This document shows positions 51,429 through 63,470 of a stretch of DNA of 64,000 bases, piece after piece (position 1 is the stretch's first letter; each line of letters starts with the position of its first letter). Position numbers and translations under genes: made by a program. This stretch comes from Prevotella sp. (GTDB lineage: Bacteria; Bacteroidota; Bacteroidia; Bacteroidales; Bacteroidaceae). The notes beneath the pieces were generated by a model that had not been told where the DNA came from, made no database searches, and saw nothing but the letters and a program-made list of their open reading frames with translations. The stretch covers positions 1 to 64,000 of the forward strand of contig JAEEQB010000023.1 in the NCBI GenBank assembly GCA_016285075.1. The letters are read 5' to 3'.

Positions 51429-51626
51429 ATGGAAAATAGAATCAAAGTAGTTCTCGCGGATAAGAAGAGAACAAACAAGTGGCTATCCGAGCAGTTGGAG
51501 TGTGCACCGACTACCGTGAGTAAATGGTGTACCAATGCCAGCCAGCCACCTATGGAGACATTCGTCAAGATTGCAGAACTCCTCGATGTCGATATAAACG
51601 AATTGTTGAGGATAGAAAAGAAGTAA
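51429..51626 (+). CDS. XRE-family small HTH regulator
   Basis: NRIKVVLADKKRTNKWLSEQLECAPTTVSKWCTNASQPPMETFVKIAELLDVDINELL. Confidence 0.88.
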   Translation: MENRIKVVLADKKRTNKWLSEQLECAPTTVSKWCTNASQPPMETFVKIAELLDVDINELLRIEKK

Positions 51627-52675: not shown

Positions 52676-53929
52676 TTATAAATCCAGACTGTTCTCTTTG
52701 AGTAAGAAGTCGAAAAGACCGATTGTGAGTATTCCCTCCTCGTTTCGACGAGGCATAATGTGGTCTTTCACAATGATCACCTTCTTGAAAGAATCATTGA
52801 TGTTTGTAAATGGGCGAGATTCCTGTATCTCTTTCTCCCTGTCTGGGATGGACAAGGCTGACTGCACATAATATTTCTTACTTCCGAGGCTGGCAATAAA
52901 GTCCACTTCAAGTTGGATACGAACCCACTTGCCATTCTTGTCCTGCTTCTTAATCTCCACCATTCCAACGTCTACGCTATAGCCGCGTGTGATCAGTTCG
53001 TTGTAAATGATGTTCTCCATGATGTGCGTTTCCTCTTGTTGGCGCATATCTAAGATGGCATTTCTCAGACCTATATCAGAGAAATAGTATTTGGATAGCG
53101 TGTTGATGTATTTCTTACCTTTTATATCGTAACGTATAGCTCTGTTCAGCAGGAACGATTCGGACAGGAAGGTGAGGTAATTAGAAATGGTCTGACTGCC
53201 AATACTCACATTCTTAACGCTCTTGAAAGTATTCGATAATTTTGTAGGATTGCATGGAGCACCTATAGATGATGCCAAAATAAGCACCAACTCACGCAGT
53301 TCATTGTCATTCTTGATTTTATGCCTCTCAATAATGTCTGCGAGATATACAGTTTCAAACAAGTCCTTCAGATAGTTTATCTTTTTTTCTTCGGTCTCAA
53401 AAGATTGGATGAGCGGCAGACCACCATAGGTGTAATATTCACGCCATGCATCTAATTTGTCACCGCCTTTGGCAGAATAAAACTCTGCGAATGAGAGTGG
53501 ATTTATATGGATGGTCTCTCCTCGACCACGAAACTCCGTTGGAATATCTGATGACAGGAAGTGAGAGTTGCTGCCTGTTACGTAAGTGTCGGCATTATCA
53601 ATATGCCGGAAACTATTCAGTACATCAACAAATTCATCCATCAACTGAACTTCGTCTATAATGATGTAGTATAGCTCCTTGTCCTTGATTTTGTCATGAA
53701 CATAATGGAGCATCGTGTCTGGATTTCTCAGTTCTTTGTTCATGCGGTCTTCAAGGTCAATGCGGATGATGTGGTCATCAGCCACCCCATTATCTAATAA
53801 GTAGTGATAGAACAAGACGTTCAGCAGATACGACTTGCCACATCTACGAATTCCTGTTACCACTTTGATAAAGCCATTTTGACGGCTTTCAATTAATTGT
53901 TTTAGATATCGATCTCTGTTAATCTCCAT
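52676..53929 (-). CDS. ATP-binding protein, AAA_14 + DUF4143
   Basis: VVTGIRRCGKSYLLNVLF, YIIIDEVQLMDEFVDVLNSF, YVTGSNSHFLSSDIPTEFRGRGETIHINPLSFAEF. Confidence 0.93.
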   Translation of the reverse strand: MEINRDRYLKQLIESRQNGFIKVVTGIRRCGKSYLLNVLFYHYLLDNGVADDHIIRIDLEDRMNKELRNPDTMLHYVHDKIKDKELYYIIIDEVQLMDEFVDVLNSFRHIDNADTYVTGSNSHFLSSDIPTEFRGRGETIHINPLSFAEFYSAKGGDKLDAWREYYTYGGLPLIQSFETEEKKINYLKDLFETVYLADIIERHKIKNDNELRELVLILASSIGAPCNPTKLSNTFKSVKNVSIGSQTISNYLTFLSESFLLNRAIRYDIKGKKYINTLSKYYFSDIGLRNAILDMRQQEETHIMENIIYNELITRGYSVDVGMVEIKKQDKNGKWVRIQLEVDFIASLGSKKYYVQSALSIPDREKEIQESRPFTNINDSFKKVIIVKDHIMPRRNEEGILTIGLFDFLLKENSLDL

Positions 53930-54680: not shown

Positions 54681-54689
54681 TATCTTTGC
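54681..54689 (+). promoter_or_regulatory. Putative -7 box (TATCTTTGC) of the defence operon
   Basis: TATCTTTGC about 30 bp upstream of the XRE start. Confidence 0.5.
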
Positions 54690-54717
54690 GCATGAAAAGC
54701 AGTTAATAACAATATAG

Positions 54718-54933
54718 ATGATGAAGAAAGATTGTCAAAACAGAATCAGAGTGGTGTTGGCTGACAAGCAAATCACTAATCGATGGCTTGCTGAGCAGAT
54801 GGGAGTGACCGACATGACTGTCTCTCGATGGAAGACGAACAAGATACAACCATCTATGGCGCAATTTGTGGAGATTGCCCGTTTGCTTCAGGTTGACATA
54901 AAGGATTTGCTGGAAGTGAAGTTTGACAGATGA
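54718..54933 (+). CDS. XRE-family small HTH regulator (C-protein-like), first gene of the defence operon
   Basis: NRIRVVLADKQITNRWLAEQMGVTDMTVSRWKTNKIQPSMAQFVEIARLLQVDIKDLL. Confidence 0.9.
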   Translation: MMKKDCQNRIRVVLADKQITNRWLAEQMGVTDMTVSRWKTNKIQPSMAQFVEIARLLQVDIKDLLEVKFDR

Positions 54934-55027
54934 TCATATTCTTGCCCCCAAAGGGTGCTTGAATTCTATATCAAATAAAATCGACTCGGTTACAACAGGT
55001 CAAGTAAAAAAAATAAACAAAGAATTA

Positions 55028-55927
55028 ATGGCAGACATAAATACAACAGATGACATACAATATGATAAGATTTACTATGGCAATTGTGAAGAGGTAATGA
55101 GGGGATTTCCCGACAAGAGCATAGATCTTATCGTGACTTCTCCTCCCTACGCTAATCAAAGGTCATATGGCGAAGAAGTTAATATTTCCACGCCTAGCAA
55201 CTATGTAGATTGGTTCAAACCTATGGCCAAGCAGATAAGAAGGGTTCTTAAAGACACGGGTAGCTTCGTTCTCAACATTAATGACAAGGTTGTTGATGGT
55301 GAACAATCTTTATATGTGTTCAAACTCGTCATCTATTTGTGTGAGGAATTGGGATTCAGGTTTGTTCGTGATTATATTTGGTATAACCCGGCAACAGCTC
55401 CTAATATTTATTCAACAGGCAAATATGGGCGTACAAAGAAGTCTCACGAATATTGCTTTTGGTTTAGTGTGGGAGAAGAGTGGACTTTCAACCTTGACCC
55501 AATAAGGAGACCTTACGGGCATGACATGCTGAAATATCTTGAAGGAAAAGGAAAGGGAAACCGCAGAACAAACACAAGACCAAGTACACACAATTTCAAT
55601 TGTGAAAAGGTTTGGAATGATAATGGTGGTTCTGATCCTGGAAGTGTTATAGAATTAGCAAATACAAACAGCAATGATACATTCTTCAAGCAGTGCAGGG
55701 AATTGGGGATAACTCATCCAGCACGTTTCCCCATAAAATTGGCCGAATTCTTTATCAAAGCTGGTTCTAACGAAGGTGATGTCGTATTAGACCCTTTTTC
55801 AGGATCGGGTACTACTTGTGTGGCCGCCGATGGGTTAGGGAGACACTGGATAGGGATTGATGCAAATAAAGACTATTGCCAATTATCTCGTTTAAGAATC
55901 GAGGCAGAGAGGAAAGACAGAGAATAA
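55028..55927 (+). CDS. DNA methyltransferase (N4-C/N6-A type)
   Basis: LIVTSPPYANQRSYG (motif IV) before DPFSGSGTTCVAA (motif I), beta-type order; start taken at 55028. Confidence 0.93.
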   Translation: MADINTTDDIQYDKIYYGNCEEVMRGFPDKSIDLIVTSPPYANQRSYGEEVNISTPSNYVDWFKPMAKQIRRVLKDTGSFVLNINDKVVDGEQSLYVFKLVIYLCEELGFRFVRDYIWYNPATAPNIYSTGKYGRTKKSHEYCFWFSVGEEWTFNLDPIRRPYGHDMLKYLEGKGKGNRRTNTRPSTHNFNCEKVWNDNGGSDPGSVIELANTNSNDTFFKQCRELGITHPARFPIKLAEFFIKAGSNEGDVVLDPFSGSGTTCVAADGLGRHWIGIDANKDYCQLSRLRIEAERKDRE

Positions 55928-55928
55928 T

Positions 55929-56774
55929 ATGAGAAAGAATCTTCCATATAGCTTACGACACATGGATGGTGCCAAAGGTCTGATGAGTCTCCCTGACAAG
56001 TCAGTGAAGCTTATCTACGGCTCACCCCCGTACCCCAATGCAACTCGCAACTATGGGACGTGGAACTCTTCAGAATACATCGAGAAAATATCACCATTCA
56101 TTAACGCTGCCAGGAAGAAGCTTCGCGATGATGGTTTTTTGGTTATTAACGTTAAAGCAAACAGGGAGAAGCCGTCAGACGGGACGAACTCTCGCAGGTC
56201 GCTTGTAATAGAGAAATTAGCGGTAATGCTCGAAGAGAAGTGGCATCTGTACTGTGTTGACATCGAAATCTGGATAAAGGACAATCCTGTTCCGACAGGA
56301 CTTCGAGTTGCTTGCCAGGATGCATATGAGCAGAACCTTTGGTTCGCCGTTAGCCCAAACTGGACTATAAACATTGATGACATCAGAAGGGAGTATGAGC
56401 AAACATCATTAAAACATTATGCCAATAACGAGTATCATCCAAGACAAAACGGTGTTGGTTATGTCAAGAAGAGCAAGAAAATAGACCCAAATCCGATGGG
56501 AGCATTGCCGCTGAATGTAATAAAAGGAGCGGTTTCGGCGAAAATAGGCAAACATCAAGCCGTCCAACCGAACTACCTCCCTAATAAGTATATTAAGGCT
56601 ACCACTCAGGAAGGAGATTTGGTTGTTGATCCTTGGATGGGTACTGGTACGACTGGTGTAGAATGTATGCGACTGGGACGCAGATTCATCGGCTTCGACA
56701 TTATGTCAGAATATGTTGCACAAGCAAGAGAGAATATAAAAAGAGCTTACAAAGAAAAAGATGAAAATGGTTAA
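55929..56774 (+). CDS. Second DNA methyltransferase (N4-C/N6-A type)
   Basis: LIYGSPPYPNATRNYG and DPWMGTGTTGVECMRLGRRFIGFD. Confidence 0.92.
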   Translation: MRKNLPYSLRHMDGAKGLMSLPDKSVKLIYGSPPYPNATRNYGTWNSSEYIEKISPFINAARKKLRDDGFLVINVKANREKPSDGTNSRRSLVIEKLAVMLEEKWHLYCVDIEIWIKDNPVPTGLRVACQDAYEQNLWFAVSPNWTINIDDIRREYEQTSLKHYANNEYHPRQNGVGYVKKSKKIDPNPMGALPLNVIKGAVSAKIGKHQAVQPNYLPNKYIKATTQEGDLVVDPWMGTGTTGVECMRLGRRFIGFDIMSEYVAQARENIKRAYKEKDENG

Positions 56775-57264
56775 TGTTGCTGCACGAAAAACAAAGCTGT
56801 ACGAAAAGATGATAAGGTCTTTAGGCGATGCTTTGTGGACTTGCTCAGACATGAGCAAGAGACCGCTTGTGCTGCAACTAATCAAACCATATAAAATTGA
56901 GGTAACTGTTTACTTGTTCCTCGGAACAAACCCTCCTGGAGGCAGGCGTGATGGAGAATATAAGATAACGCTCACTTCCCCCGGACAGCAACGACGGACA
57001 CGAGGAAATTTTGAGAGCGGTTCTGGAATACCTCTCATATTAGCATATATAGAGGATTATGATGTCTATGTATTCTTCAACAACCGCTTTCACACTAATT
57101 TTGGATACAACACTAACGTACAATTCAAACAGGAACTCGTCTTCAATGCTGTTCGTGATGGTGTGTCAAGAATGACAAAAGAAAATGGTGAAACCATTAT
57201 TGGTGCGAGAGGGAGAAATATTGTTGACGGCTTTAAAGAATGGTTCAAGGTCCTATGCAGCTAA
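56761..57264 (+). CDS. Methylase-associated protein; candidate restriction/recognition subunit
   Basis: Overlaps both neighbours; RRDGEYKITLTSPGQ.., LILAYIEDYDVYVFFNNRFH, VQF resemble methylase-associated restriction-component families; not confirmed. Confidence 0.5.
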   Translation: MKMVNVAARKTKLYEKMIRSLGDALWTCSDMSKRPLVLQLIKPYKIEVTVYLFLGTNPPGGRRDGEYKITLTSPGQQRRTRGNFESGSGIPLILAYIEDYDVYVFFNNRFHTNFGYNTNVQFKQELVFNAVRDGVSRMTKENGETIIGARGRNIVDGFKEWFKVLCS

Positions 57265-59369
57265 ACGAATTGGTTATAAAATCCTCATATAGGAAAATCT
57301 CCGACGACATTGCCGAAGATTTTTACATTCCTTGCATGAAGGCCTCTTCACGCTACGATCGTATCTCCGGCTATTTCGGGAGCACTATATACATCGTGGC
57401 ATGGAAGGGGTTGAAGTCGTTTGTCTGTAATAATCACGGAGTGATGCGAATCATCTGTTCACCCTATTTGTCACCAGAAGATTATGATGCTATCCGACGA
57501 GGGACAATTGCCAAAGAGGACCCAACTTTGGCCAACATCTTATTCAGTGAGACGAAGGCCATGTTTGCGAAAGAAACGTTATCCAACCCAGAAAAGGTTT
57601 TAGCCAGCCTCATCTGCAATGGCAATCTTGAAATAAAAATTGCCGTTGGTAGCGACTCTAACCGATTATTTCACGACAAAGTTGGCGTTTTCCATGATAA
57701 TGCAGGCAACTCCATAGCTTTCAGGGGAACTATAAACGAGACGTTCAAAGGTCTTTCCAACGATGGTAATTTTGAATCTCTCGATGCGTTTACGAGTTGG
57801 GAGGAAGGAAAAGACCGGTCACGTTTGTGTGACATTGAAAATGATTTTGAATTGTTGTGGCATAACAAGATTGAGAGCATAAGGGTCTATAGTGTTCCCG
57901 AATCAATAAAAGAGGAGATCAGAAAGCATTACAAACAAGAGTCGCATCATTGGCTTGAACTTATTGACCAGATAGAAGTGACAATTGATAAGTCCACTCA
58001 ATGGTCAGCAGACAAGGATAAAGGTGGACGCAAACCTAGAAAGCACCAGCTTGATGCTTTGGAAAAATGGGTCTCTAACGGGAAAAGAGGCATCTTTGAG
58101 CATGCCACAGGAAGTGGGAAAACTTTTACTGCCATGTGTGCAATTAGGAAAGAACTTGAAGAGGGCAATCCTGTAATAGTGCTTGTTCCCTCCATCGGGT
58201 TACTTGAACAATGGCGTGACGAGTTGAAAGCAACACTAAAGGGGATGGATATTCAATATCTCCTCTGTGGCAGCAATTATTCCAACTGGAAGCATGGTAC
58301 AAATCTCAATAGTTGGACTAAAACTGGATTGCCACAAAAAAGAGTGACTATTGCTGTCATGGATACCGCTTGTAACGGAGAATTCCTTTCAAAAGTTGCA
58401 TGGTCTGACAAATTATTTGTAGTTGCTGATGAAGTTCATCGTATGGGTAGCCCCAGCAGAAGACAGTTTATGACTACAGCCGTATGCGGCGCCCGTTTAG
58501 GCCTTTCAGCAACACCAAAAAGATTTGGGGATTCTATTGGAACACAGGCTATCATTACTTTCTTCGGGGAAATCATCCAGCCCCCATATACCTTGAAGAA
58601 TGCCATTGATGATGGAGTTTTGACCCGATATTTCTATCACCCCCGTGAGGTTAACTTGACAGAGACCGAGCAGCAGGAATGGGATGAAATCACGAAGCAA
58701 ATAAAAATACAATACATCCGCATGTCAGCAAATGAACGCGAAAACTCCATGTCGAACACCCGCTTCAAGATGCTTCTTCTTAGAAGAGCACGCATTATGA
58801 AGCAAGCAACTAATAAAATACAAATAGCCAAAGACATCATAGCCAATCATTATGAAAACGGCCAGAGATGGATTGTCTATTGTGAAGACAAGACACAGCT
58901 TGACCAAGTGGCATTGGCCATTCAGTCGGCTGGTGTTTCGAATGTAATCCGTTATTATTCCGATATGCCTGGCGACAGGATCAAAGCCCTTGAATATTTC
59001 GACTCGATCGGAGGTATCGTTGTGTCTATCAAGTGTTTGGATGAGGGTATTGATATCCCCTCAACGACACATGCTTTGATATTGGCCTCATCAAAAAATC
59101 CACGTGAGTTTATTCAGAGACGAGGGCGCATCCTGCGACGGCACTACGGTAAGAACTATGCGTCACTTTACGATACTATAGTTGTGCCAGAGAATATCAA
59201 TTCAAATATTGCCCATGACACGATAGTTGAAGGCGAACTAGCAAGAGCCATTCAGTTTGGCGATTGGGCAGAAAACAAGACTGGAACGGCCATTCTTAAA
59301 ATGATTGCTCAAGAAAACGACATAAATTATAATTCACTCGTAGAAGAAGGAGGCGAATATGATGAATAA
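57240..59369 (+). CDS. PLD-like nuclease domain fused to SF2 DEAD/DEAH helicase
   Basis: N-terminal RLFHDKVGVFHDNAGNSIAFRGTINETF (PLD-like); helicase HQLDALEKWVSNGKRGIFEHATGSGKTFTAM, VVADEVHRMGS, LGLSATPKR, QRRGRILRRH. Confidence 0.88.
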   Translation: MVQGPMQLNELVIKSSYRKISDDIAEDFYIPCMKASSRYDRISGYFGSTIYIVAWKGLKSFVCNNHGVMRIICSPYLSPEDYDAIRRGTIAKEDPTLANILFSETKAMFAKETLSNPEKVLASLICNGNLEIKIAVGSDSNRLFHDKVGVFHDNAGNSIAFRGTINETFKGLSNDGNFESLDAFTSWEEGKDRSRLCDIENDFELLWHNKIESIRVYSVPESIKEEIRKHYKQESHHWLELIDQIEVTIDKSTQWSADKDKGGRKPRKHQLDALEKWVSNGKRGIFEHATGSGKTFTAMCAIRKELEEGNPVIVLVPSIGLLEQWRDELKATLKGMDIQYLLCGSNYSNWKHGTNLNSWTKTGLPQKRVTIAVMDTACNGEFLSKVAWSDKLFVVADEVHRMGSPSRRQFMTTAVCGARLGLSATPKRFGDSIGTQAIITFFGEIIQPPYTLKNAIDDGVLTRYFYHPREVNLTETEQQEWDEITKQIKIQYIRMSANERENSMSNTRFKMLLLRRARIMKQATNKIQIAKDIIANHYENGQRWIVYCEDKTQLDQVALAIQSAGVSNVIRYYSDMPGDRIKALEYFDSIGGIVVSIKCLDEGIDIPSTTHALILASSKNPREFIQRRGRILRRHYGKNYASLYDTIVVPENINSNIAHDTIVEGELARAIQFGDWAENKTGTAILKMIAQENDINYNSLVEEGGEYDE

Positions 59370-59568
59370 TAACAACAAAATTGACGAGATTAAGAAAGTG
59401 CTGGAACGAATAAGAGCCGAGAAATACTCAGCTGTTCCTGCCAGCATCGTTGAGAAAATCGTAGATGTTCAGGTGAACCACAATGAGGACTCTGAACATA
59501 CAGAAGCTTATAATGAGATTAAAAGTATAGTCAACAACCACCTAAGCAAGATAGACGAAGATGCTTAA
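59359..59568 (+). CDS. Small hypothetical protein of the defence operon
   Basis: 69 aa; overlaps the gene before (11 bp) and after (8 bp). Confidence 0.65.
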   Translation: MMNNNNKIDEIKKVLERIRAEKYSAVPASIVEKIVDVQVNHNEDSEHTEAYNEIKSIVNNHLSKIDEDA

Positions 59569-61546
59569 ATTCAAACAACTGGAAATAACCAACTATGGCC
59601 CGTATTATGGAAGCCATAAGCTTACTTTCTCCCAAAAGAATGGTGTAACAATTGTATGGGGAGACAACGGATTTGGCAAGACCTCTTTGCTCAATTGCTT
59701 CCGTTATGTGATGTGGGGAACTATTATGGGACGTGAAGGCACCATTAGTTCTGACATCTGCAGCCATGTGAATGATAAAGCTGTTAGCGAAGGTAATGGT
59801 ATGCAGATAAGTCTTGACATGGAGTATGACAACAAAACTTATACACTAACGAGAAAGTACGAAAGGAAGGGAGGTGACGGAAAGTTAGACAAGGATTACG
59901 AAGAGCATATTTTCTTAAAGTGCGGATTTGATATCCTTACCGACGACCAACGTATTCACTTTCTCAACACTACATTCCCAGAAAGAATTTCCCGTTTCTA
60001 CCTTTTTGATGCGGAACTTCTGAGTGAATATGAGAACCTACTAATTGTGGATGACGCGAACAACAAGATAAAGAAATCCATTGAGGATATTTTAGGTTTG
60101 CCCGTTCTTGAGCGAGGGGCTAACATGCTGAATGCCATCCAAAAGGGATTAGTTGAGGATGCTGTAAAGAATTCCAAAACTGAAGAAAAGACCAAGCAGG
60201 ATGCTATTCTCTTAGAGTCACTTAGCGACAAAGTAGATGAATTGAATAAGAGTCTTCTGGAACTGCAAGACAAGGTTGATGCTGATGAGAAAAAACTCGG
60301 AGAAATCAAGGAGAAACAAAAGCAAAATGAATCTCTTCAAAGCATCAACACCCAGCAAGATAACATTCGGACTGAATTAAAGGGAAAGGAAGATAACTTG
60401 GATGAAACAAAGCTTGATATAAACCGCAGCATGGAATCGTTATGGAAAACGGTAATAAGTCCTGTAGTTTCACGTCAAGTGGAAGAAGCACGTAAAAGAA
60501 TAAAGGATCTTGACACCAAGAACACTATAGCTAGCGTAGGGCAAAACACATATGAACATATTGATGACATTTTCAGTACGCCTCTGTCTTGCCCTGATTG
60601 CGGTCATATCATAACAAAATTTGTCAAAGATACTGTGTTGGAAAACATTCAAAAGTTATCTTCATCCCCACTGACAGAGGAAGAGATTTCAGAACGTAGT
60701 TCTCTTAATGCAATCGTGTCAAGGTTCACTAATTTCAAAGAAGGTGACACAAAAGAACGCATCTCCGATTTACTAAAACGCAAATCAGAAATACAAGGAA
60801 GTATTGATTTACTCAACGTAAAGCTAACAGAACTGGACAAACAAAGAAAATCTTTGAAGACAACGATTACAGACGAGGAACTTCGTGGACTCATAGATGA
60901 TCAAGTTAAACTGGTTGCGGCTATTGATATTGGAAAGAAGTCAATTGAAGATGCAAAAAATGAAATTGATGAGATCGAAGGCCAGATTGATTCTCTGAAA
61001 CTTAAGATTGCTCAAAACTCCAGTAAAATCAACAAGAAAGTATTTAAGGATGCGGAGTTTGCCAAAAATCTGCACAGCCTCTTTGTTGATGCTATGGCTG
61101 AATATAGTCTGAAAATGAAGGACGCTGTTGAAAAAGATGCAACAGACTTGTTTGTTCGAATAGCTCACAACTCAAACTATAAAGAACTTGAAATCAACGA
61201 AAATTATGGATTGAGAATTGTAAGGAAAGATGGAACATACGTTCCCCATCGCTCCACTGGCTATGAACAAGTTGTTGCTATTTCTCTTATTGGAGCTCTG
61301 CATAAGAACACGCCTATCTCTGGCCCAATCGTTATGGACTCCACATTCCAGAAAATAGACCTGCGTCACAAGAGTAAAGTGATTGACGCACTACCTTCAC
61401 TTAGTGACCAAGTAATAGTGCTTGCTTATGACGGCGAACTTGATAGGAAGTACGCGAAGCAATCTCTGGGAGAAAAACTCATAAATGAAAAACGTATCAA
61501 TAATGATGACGTGAAATCATGGATTGACAATACTGATACTAAATAA
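59561..61546 (+). CDS. SMC-like AAA ATPase, DndD-like, with zinc hook
   Basis: LEITNYGPYYGSHKLTF, WGDNGFGKTSLLNCFRYVMWG, FYLFDAELLSEYENL..IKKSIEDILGLPVLERG, coiled coil, CPDCGH hook, IVMDSTFQKID. Confidence 0.88.
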   Translation: MLKFKQLEITNYGPYYGSHKLTFSQKNGVTIVWGDNGFGKTSLLNCFRYVMWGTIMGREGTISSDICSHVNDKAVSEGNGMQISLDMEYDNKTYTLTRKYERKGGDGKLDKDYEEHIFLKCGFDILTDDQRIHFLNTTFPERISRFYLFDAELLSEYENLLIVDDANNKIKKSIEDILGLPVLERGANMLNAIQKGLVEDAVKNSKTEEKTKQDAILLESLSDKVDELNKSLLELQDKVDADEKKLGEIKEKQKQNESLQSINTQQDNIRTELKGKEDNLDETKLDINRSMESLWKTVISPVVSRQVEEARKRIKDLDTKNTIASVGQNTYEHIDDIFSTPLSCPDCGHIITKFVKDTVLENIQKLSSSPLTEEEISERSSLNAIVSRFTNFKEGDTKERISDLLKRKSEIQGSIDLLNVKLTELDKQRKSLKTTITDEELRGLIDDQVKLVAAIDIGKKSIEDAKNEIDEIEGQIDSLKLKIAQNSSKINKKVFKDAEFAKNLHSLFVDAMAEYSLKMKDAVEKDATDLFVRIAHNSNYKELEINENYGLRIVRKDGTYVPHRSTGYEQVVAISLIGALHKNTPISGPIVMDSTFQKIDLRHKSKVIDALPSLSDQVIVLAYDGELDRKYAKQSLGEKLINEKRINNDDVKSWIDNTDTK

Positions 61547-61557
61547 CAACGTAAGAT

Positions 61558-61941
61558 ATGGAAGATTTACAACAGATTAGATTTCCCCTGGAAGTCATCA
61601 ATATAGCCGAAAGATTCAAGGAGGAGTATGGCCTGACACAAAACTTGCCAATACTAAAATTTGCTTTTGCGTATGCTATAAATCAATTCAAAGATCAAAT
61701 CAACTTTGAAACAGATGATCCACTATACAAAAAAAACGATGGAAGTAATTATGGTATAAACTCTTTTGAGAATGATAGTAATCTGCGAGTAGCTGATTTG
61801 ATAAAAGCCCTTTATCCTCAGTGCGAAACACCTTATCGTTATATGCGTATTGCCATAATCTATGGTATCCTAAAACTTGACAAAGCTAAAAAATACGACC
61901 CTGATTTTCGTATTATTGATGTGATGCAAGATGTACAATAA
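61558..61941 (+). CDS. Small hypothetical protein, DndE-like placement and N-terminus
   Basis: IRFPLEVINIAERFKEEYGLTQNLPILKFAFAYAINQ vaguely resembles DndE-type proteins; 11 bp after the DndD-like gene. Confidence 0.45.
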   Translation: MEDLQQIRFPLEVINIAERFKEEYGLTQNLPILKFAFAYAINQFKDQINFETDDPLYKKNDGSNYGINSFENDSNLRVADLIKALYPQCETPYRYMRIAIIYGILKLDKAKKYDPDFRIIDVMQDVQ

Positions 61942-62357: not shown

Positions 62358-63470
62358 ATGAATAGACTCGTTATCATAGGAAATGGTTTTGACATGGCAC
62401 ACGGCCTAAAAACCAGTTATAAGGACTTCATTAACTGGTATTGGTCGTATAAAGTAAAAGAATTGCATGGCATCAATGGAAAGCTTTCAGAAGATCCTTT
62501 GTGTAAAATAGAATTAGTTAATGGGGATTCATGGGTAGAATCCCTACGCAAAGATATTATATTCTCTAAAGAAGAATGGTGGCCTTCCATTTATAAGGAT
62601 AGGAAAAAATTTGAACAGGGTTACAGAATAGTACCAACGCCTTTCTTTGACTCAATTCTACAGTCCATTGAAACGCGAGGCTGGGTTGATATAGAGAATG
62701 ACTACTATCAACTATTGAAAAGGAGTACAGAAAATCCAAACTGTGGCTATACAGTCAAAGAACTGAATGACCAGTTAGCGTTTCTGCAAGACAAGCTCAT
62801 AGAATATCTCCGTACAATCAGCACAAACCGACACAAAAAAAATCTGCATAATGCCATGATTGAGTTCTTTGACCCTGCTGATTTCTCAACAGAAGGGAAA
62901 AAGAAGGCATTAGAAAATATGGGGCTTGAGAATACAAACCTTGAAGAAATACAAAATAATTTTGAGGAGCAAAAAAAACTGAGGCCTGAACGTATATTGT
63001 TGTTGAGCTTCAATTACACAGCGACGGCCAAGATGTACAATATTTTTAACCTTGAACACAACTATATCCATGGTGAGTTGGAGCATCCTGAAAATATAAT
63101 ATTTGGCTATGGTGATGATCTTGACAAGGATTACAAGGACATTCTTGACAAAAATGACAAGGAACTATTGAAGAACAACAAGTCTTCAAAATATCTGGAA
63201 ACGAGGCATTACCACGAAATGCTGGAGTTCCTGATGTCAGCACCTTTTCAAGCACTGATAATGGGGCATTCCTGTGGGAATTCCGACAGGACTCTGCTCA
63301 ACACCGTCTTTGAGCATGAGAACTGCGTTTCAATAAAACCCTTCTATCATAAATGGGAAGGCGGTGGTGACAACTATTTGGAACTTGTGCAGAATATTTC
63401 ACGCAACTTCACCAACATGAAGTTATTCAGAGATAGAGTCGTGAACAAAGAGCAATGTAAAACAATGTAA
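62358..63470 (+). CDS. AbiH-family abortive infection protein
   Basis: MNRLVIIGNGFDMAHGLKTSYKDFINWYW start is typical of AbiH; RILLLSFNYTATAKMYN, YIHGELEHPENIIFGYGDD. Confidence 0.88.
   Translation: MNRLVIIGNGFDMAHGLKTSYKDFINWYWSYKVKELHGINGKLSEDPLCKIELVNGDSWVESLRKDIIFSKEEWWPSIYKDRKKFEQGYRIVPTPFFDSILQSIETRGWVDIENDYYQLLKRSTENPNCGYTVKELNDQLAFLQDKLIEYLRTISTNRHKKNLHNAMIEFFDPADFSTEGKKKALENMGLENTNLEEIQNNFEEQKKLRPERILLLSFNYTATAKMYNIFNLEHNYIHGELEHPENIIFGYGDDLDKDYKDILDKNDKELLKNNKSSKYLETRHYHEMLEFLMSAPFQALIMGHSCGNSDRTLLNTVFEHENCVSIKPFYHKWEGGGDNYLELVQNISRNFTNMKLFRDRVVNKEQCKTM

Follow-up and report, generated by a model that had tools for sequence, protein, structure and literature searches.

Positions 55028-61941 of the window (the whole stretch of DNA analysed here, 64,000 nucleotides; positions 1 to 64,000 of contig JAEEQB010000023.1, Prevotella sp. 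assembly GCA_016285075.1) hold seven genes on one strand (+), in the order MT1-MT2-MTaX1-PbeA-PbeB-PbeC-PbeD. The block is a real, tightly packed anti-phage operon of an already described kind, and we infer that it is active in defence in the source strain. MT1 (55028..55927, start ATG at 55028) is separated by 1 bp from MT2 (55929..56774), which overlaps the gene for MTaX1 (methylase-associated X1; 56761..57264, 167 aa) by 14 bp. PbeA (57240..59369) overlaps MTaX1 by 25 bp, PbeB (59359..59568, 69 aa) overlaps PbeA by 11 bp, PbeC (59561..61546) overlaps PbeB by 8 bp, and PbeD (61558..61941, 127 aa) begins after a gap of 11 bp. Open reading frames, coordinates and spacings (gaps of 1 and 11 bp, overlaps of 8-25 bp) are all as given in a preliminary description of this DNA, which had also placed one promoter ahead of the operon. 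For the latter, the sequence TATCTTTGC is present at 54681..54689 (+) and is, by position, a candidate Bacteroidota-type -7 element; TANNTTTGC motifs are enriched in the window (24 vs. 9.45 expected; 0/100 shuffles as high), which fits expectation for a Bacteroidota-type promoter, but the single TATCTTTGC site is no proof of promoter function. RNA families and tRNAs were looked for in the window and none were found.

Products of the seven genes

The preliminary description had read the genes as a defence operon encoding two beta-type DNA methyltransferases (MTases), a small methylase-associated protein, a helicase of superfamily 2 (SF2) with a phospholipase D (PLD) domain, a DndD-like zinc-hook ATPase and a DndE-like last protein, and each of these readings holds. 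MT1 is a beta-class (permuted) MTase (Pfam N6_N4_Mtase, 1.6e-51; motif TSPPYA), and MT2 is a second beta-class enzyme (N6_N4_Mtase, 1.2e-37; motif SPPY). The best Protein Data Bank (PDB) match and closest solved relative of MT1 is the N4-cytosine enzyme M.PvuII (2.7e-50, residues 15-291), collinear across nearly the whole protein, while the PDB matches of MT2 are CcrM, MboIIA and PvuII. Both are predicted to be N4-cytosine MTases.

A PADLOC run, proposed in the preliminary description as a check, names PbeA (1.9e-209) and PbeC (6.4e-148). PbeA combines an N-terminal PLD/HKD-type nuclease domain with an SF2 helicase, and residues H145, K147, G163, N166 and E179 of the PLD/HKD domain, as well as the main SF2 motifs, are invariant in 80/80 relatives, in the MTaX1-carrying clade and in Dnd-linked sequences alike. 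This indicates that the nuclease site is maintained by selection in all branches. PbeC is an ATP-binding cassette (ABC) ATPase of the CxC/DndD clade, with a Walker A motif at residue 34 and a CPDC zinc hook at residue 344; it has no match among PDB sequences. PbeB, encoded between pbeA and pbeC, is a small, fast-evolving protein that shares 26-33% identity with the orthologues at this position. The AlphaFold2 model of PbeD (predicted local distance difference test, pLDDT, 93.1) has DndE as each of its top 16 PDB matches in Foldseek (probability 0.99-1.00; template modeling [TM] score 0.56-0.75), although its profile search against PDB sequences reached only chance level; on this model, PbeD is a double ribbon-helix-helix protein of DndE fold. 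MTaX1, PbeB and PbeD have no match in NCBIfam. The locus carries the gene features that define PbeABCD/CxC-DndE modules (an HKD/PLD plus SF2 PbeA, a zinc-hook CxC PbeC, a DndE-fold PbeD and a small PbeB between), and, with cytosine methylase genes and MTaX1 in the operon, those of the methylase-linked CxC-DndE type.

Conservation and genomic context of the operon

GTDB genomes searched with a PbeA alignment yielded 80 loci. Besides the window, nine of these, in Clostridia and Bacteroidales, carry both MTases in register (L032, L033, L034, L036, L038, L040, L042, L075 and L111), and the exact order MT1-MT2-MTaX1-PbeA-PbeB-PbeC(-PbeD) is found in L032, L033, L034, L036, L038, L040 and L075; contigs end within PbeA in L111 and within PbeC in L036 and L040. 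Across the Clostridia and Bacteroidales loci with this order, identity is 30-70%. Two truncated contigs, from Synergistales (L035) and Bacteroidales (L037), show the part from MTaX1 to PbeD. In L042, from a genome (G117) of the same order as the source genome, MT2 and MTaX1 form a single fused protein, the C-terminal part of which has 41% identity to MTaX1 of the window. Dnd genes were not found in those dual-MTase loci that have long flanks.

Pairwise divergence is correlated across all seven genes (r 0.75-0.96; ≤9/2000 label permutations as high), with MTaX1 co-diverging with PbeA, PbeB, PbeC and PbeD at r 0.92-0.94; part of this may reflect species relatedness besides joint inheritance of the operon. 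A lack of co-conservation between the MTase block and the block around the PbeC ATPase had been named beforehand as an outcome that would speak against the proposed operon. The blocks are strongly co-conserved across loci, and the co-divergence, together with the MT2-MTaX1 fusion, indicates that they form one system. Identity to the window is 54-70% for MT1 and MT2 vs. 26-41% for MTaX1, PbeB, PbeC and PbeD; judged from these sequences, the better conservation of the MTases points to a methylation target that is conserved and an interface that evolves faster.

In a quick maximum-likelihood tree of the 80 PbeA proteins (no bootstraps; the long branches L103 and L106 are unreliable), 19 MTaX1-linked loci group in a single starred clade, and those with two MTases lie within a starred sub-clade of 13 entries; this restriction of the MTase pair to a single sub-clade of PbeA is new here. 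Dnd-linked loci lie mostly outside the MTaX1 clade, and the majority of PbeA relatives are without MTaX1. A neighboring group contains one locus (L061) with a long MTaX1-containing protein in an unusual place. Clustering of partner labels was as strong in 0/500 shuffles.

The preliminary description had noted that DndA/B/C-like genes are lacking and that phosphorothioation (PT) is not expected. No DndA, DndB, DndC, DndD or DndE gene was found beside the locus and no DndC in the source genome by TIGR03183, so that neither the PT-dependent Dnd-Pbe arrangement (DndC, DndD, DndE and DndA beside pbeABCD) nor a classical DndABCDE system, as judged by DndC, is present. The same genome does, however, hold another Pbe-like locus, at about 75400-86600 of G000:C64 (L112:1419-12602). 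It encodes a DUF4007 protein, an AAA/STAND-like ATPase of 1099 aa, a protein with weak PP-loop/DndC similarity, a PbeA of 739 aa, an ABC ATPase and a protein of 381 aa that weakly matches PbeD. Given the DndC-like protein, the expectation of no PT applies to the locus in the window, and for the cell as a whole it is unproven.

Other partners accompany PbeA relatives elsewhere. Some Pbe operons without Dnd genes, archaeal as well as bacterial, encode a radical S-adenosylmethionine (radical-SAM) protein that is about 420-480 aa long and has a CX3CX2C motif. It lies directly after PbeD or PbeA in six loci (L080:8275-9606, L081:13665-14939, L088:8940-10379, L094:12463-13722, L109:6194-7615, L110:8502-9758) and nearby in L084:16360-17751 and L099:1493-2770. 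This enzyme, which has no mention in the text of Rakesh 2024, might represent a third type of DNA-modifying partner of PbeABCD. Many of the loci that lack MTaX1 (L045-L059, L062-L064, L069, L071, L079, L083, L087, L098 and others) have, next to PbeA or PbeD, a large protein (about 600-1300 aa) that carries a sigma-70 region 4 motif; in some families it is also similar to the C-terminal domain of the RNA polymerase alpha subunit.

Genes flanking the operon in the window are not part of the system. The preliminary description had counted a small XRE/HTH_26 regulator gene (54718..54933, +; Pfam HTH_26, 1.9e-10) in the set, but it is a local regulator and not a conserved component: it is absent from the equivalent place in all orthologous loci, and copies of it precede unrelated operons. 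The genome has ten matches to this helix-turn-helix protein, including itself; the six other copies whose downstream DNA was read precede unrelated genes, among them a cytosine-5 MTase operon. Similar small XRE genes (41-60% identity) head diverse operons, several of them defence-like (window 54718-54933 and 51429-51626; G000 C8, C59, C100, C11, C61 and C36), and the family may be a shared regulator or mark an insertion hotspot. An AbiH-family gene (62358..63470, +; Pfam AbiH, 4.4e-30), 416 bp downstream of PbeD, is also absent from the orthologous loci and is a separate neighboring defence gene. Upstream, an AAA ATPase gene (52676-53929, -) matches the PADLOC candidate PDC-S01 (3.3e-116).

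MTaX1 within and outside Pbe loci

The window MTaX1 matches Pfam PF20296 (9e-15), and the family is matched in 18/18 relatives. Within the phylum it is rare (5/396 genomes). Its AlphaFold2 model (pLDDT 91.6) has as first PDB match in Foldseek the PD-(D/E)XK homing endonuclease I-Ssp6803I, a weak match (E 2.8e-3, probability 1.00), and the matches also include the DREN chain of SPARDA (probability 0.82); TM scores are only 0.42-0.50. Viral matches of MTaX1 include annotated PD(D/E)XK proteins, with weak scores, and a profile search against PDB sequences gave chance-level matches only. The catalytic set of DREN is D..QxK (PMC12205087). The window MTaX1 has D101, Q121 and K123, of which Q121 is invariant, and D and K are each kept in 11/18.

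In Bacteroidota loci without Pbe genes, the MTaX1 gene follows directly on that of an MT1-like MTase, which has 37-38% identity in L135 and L136 and matches partially in L137. MTaX1 carries a fused HNH_2 domain in L135 and a fused GmrSD_N domain in L136; in L137 the frame is broken up. In a further locus (L138), an MTaX1-HNH_2 protein adjoins an Eco57I-type MTase. A small XRE-like gene, judged by eye from the sequence, lies ahead of the MTase in L135 and L137. These four loci are candidate type II-like restriction-modification (R-M) systems with an exchangeable nuclease. Unlike such copies, the window MTaX1 is free-standing and has no fused nuclease.

That the MTaX1 domain stays constant while the nuclease changes is most simply explained if it reads the target or its methylation. 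The pairing of MTaX1 with an MT1-like MTase outside Pbe loci, with swapped nucleases (HNH, GmrSD_N), is new here and likewise points to a reader role. We favor MTaX1 as a site or methylation reader derived from a nuclease fold, for which nuclease activity is possible. A broader proposal, which we put forward tentatively and hold to be somewhat less probable than its converse, is that MTaX1, as a DNA reader of PD-(D/E)XK fold (I-Ssp6803I/DREN-like), and an MT1-like N4-cytosine MTase make up a portable modification-and-recognition unit that is plugged into HNH, GmrSD_N or the whole of PbeABCD, and that in the two-MTase branch MTaX1 licenses PbeABCD on hemi- or unmethylated sites. If so, a single restriction engine would be re-aimed by exchanging the chemistry of the mark: sulfur, methyl, perhaps a radical-SAM product.

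Mode of action and relation to known systems

The operon is very probably a methylation-linked PbeABCD (CxC-DndE) restriction module, in which base methylation replaces PT. MT1 and MT2 would place N4-cytosine methylation at host sites as a self mark, probably each on its own strand or half-site of an asymmetric sequence, and MTaX1 would read the site and its methylation state. PbeC and PbeD would bind and scan DNA, and the small PbeB may serve as a regulator or linker. When the invading DNA is unmethylated, the complex would engage PbeA, its helicase translocating and its HKD domain cutting or nicking, and phage replication would stop. If the PT-linked system is a guide, a host that lost the mark would come under attack by its own PbeABCD, unless a phage trigger is required.

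Several points weigh against this account. The matches of the PbeA helicase part to TIGR04095 (1.8e-104) and of PbeC to TIGR03185 (DndD; 4.2e-40) are below the NCBI cut-offs, and the predicted N4-cytosine specificity stands on the SPPY motif and the similarity to M.PvuII; strictly speaking, SPPY is also compatible with N6-adenine. Whether PbeA cuts is a matter of dispute: anti-viral defence by PT-linked PbeABCD was shown experimentally, and viral DNA replication was blocked in a PT-dependent way while the viral DNA stayed intact, with no cleavage seen (Xiong 2019, PMC6459918). The kept nuclease site, as far as sequence can tell, speaks more for the view of Rakesh 2024 (PMC10853773), in which the system acts partly by cleaving nucleic acid, than for this no-cleavage reading, and we consider the chances of direct restriction of unmethylated DNA by cutting to be evenly balanced.

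Two systems might instead lie side by side, a type II-like R-M system (MT1, MT2 and MTaX1 as the restriction enzyme) and a solitary PbeABCD that works by itself or together with PT provided by another part of the genome. MTase-MTaX1 pairs do exist without Pbe genes, most PbeA relatives are without MTaX1 and the same genome has the Pbe-like locus with a DndC-like PP-loop protein, but the overlapping reading frames, the identical order across phyla, the co-divergence of MTaX1 with the four Pbe proteins, the single MTaX1-carrying PbeA clade and the lack of a nuclease fused to the window MTaX1 make this very improbable. It is also improbable, if less markedly so, that MTaX1 is itself a site-specific endonuclease of PD-(D/E)XK fold with PbeABCD as an added translocase or replication-blocking unit; the matches to I-Ssp6803I and DREN and the D101, Q121 and K123 set would fit such an enzyme, whereas the low TM scores, the chance-level profile search, the incomplete conservation of D and K and the fusions to HNH and GmrSD_N, which suggest a recognition role, do not. 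Abortive infection, in which PbeABCD attacks host DNA upon disturbed methylation or PbeB inactivation and the infected cell dies, was proposed for CxC systems by Rakesh 2024 (PMC10853773), and a small, fast-evolving PbeB would suit it; against the PT-dependent viral replication block with intact viral DNA (PMC6459918), we regard it as unlikely, though the least so of these three.

The preliminary description called the gene set undescribed, which does not stand: named systems with the same genes exist (PbeABCD, PMC6459918; methylase-linked CxC-DndE, PMC10853773), and the set is already described computationally. Xiong 2019 (PMC6459918) named PbeABCD as the PT-dependent partner of DndCDEA, found MTase genes within 10 kb of 155/320 solitary PbeAC pairs, and posed, without settling it, the question of whether methylation can stand in for PT as the partner of PbeABCD. 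In Rakesh 2024 (PMC10853773), PbeC is a CxC ABC ATPase, PbeD is DndE and PbeA is HKD-SF2; cytosine-5 and/or permuted cytosine-N4 methylases are encoded in some of the CxC-DndE operons, frequently together with MTaX1, and the set of CxC-ABC, DndE, HKD-SF2, a small protein, N4-cytosine methylases and MTaX1 is described there (Fig. 4A iv, credited to earlier work). No experimental test of this methylase-linked branch was found in the openly licensed full-text literature searched. At about 7 kb, with no Dnd genes beside it and conserved in Clostridia and Bacteroidales, the operon is a clean test case, and could settle whether PbeABCD runs on methylation and whether Pbe modules cleave DNA, which is still in dispute.

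Compared with DndCDEA-PbeABCD of Haloterrigena jeotgali A29, the four Pbe genes and their order are the same (HKD-SF2 helicase, small protein, ABC ATPase, DndE-type protein), whereas the partner in the window is two MTases and MTaX1 and not DndCDEA; the window PbeA belongs to another clade than most Dnd-linked copies, and PbeD to another sequence cluster than most Dnd-linked loci. Type II-like R-M loci (L135-L137) share an MT1-like MTase gene (about 38% identity in L135 and L136) that overlaps the MTaX1 gene, but have a single MTase, no Pbe genes and, in L135 and L136, their own nuclease on MTaX1. Type I and III ATP-dependent restriction likewise joins an SF2 translocase to a nuclease with methylation as self mark; in the window an HKD nuclease replaces PD-(D/E)XK, the MTases are free-standing and there is an extra ABC-DndE scanner. 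The methylase-carrying CxC-DndE operons of Rakesh 2024 have the same gene set, and for them methylation was proposed to replace PT; the text of that study gives no separate treatment to the two-MTase sub-clade, the MT2-MTaX1 fusion or the co-divergence with the MTases.

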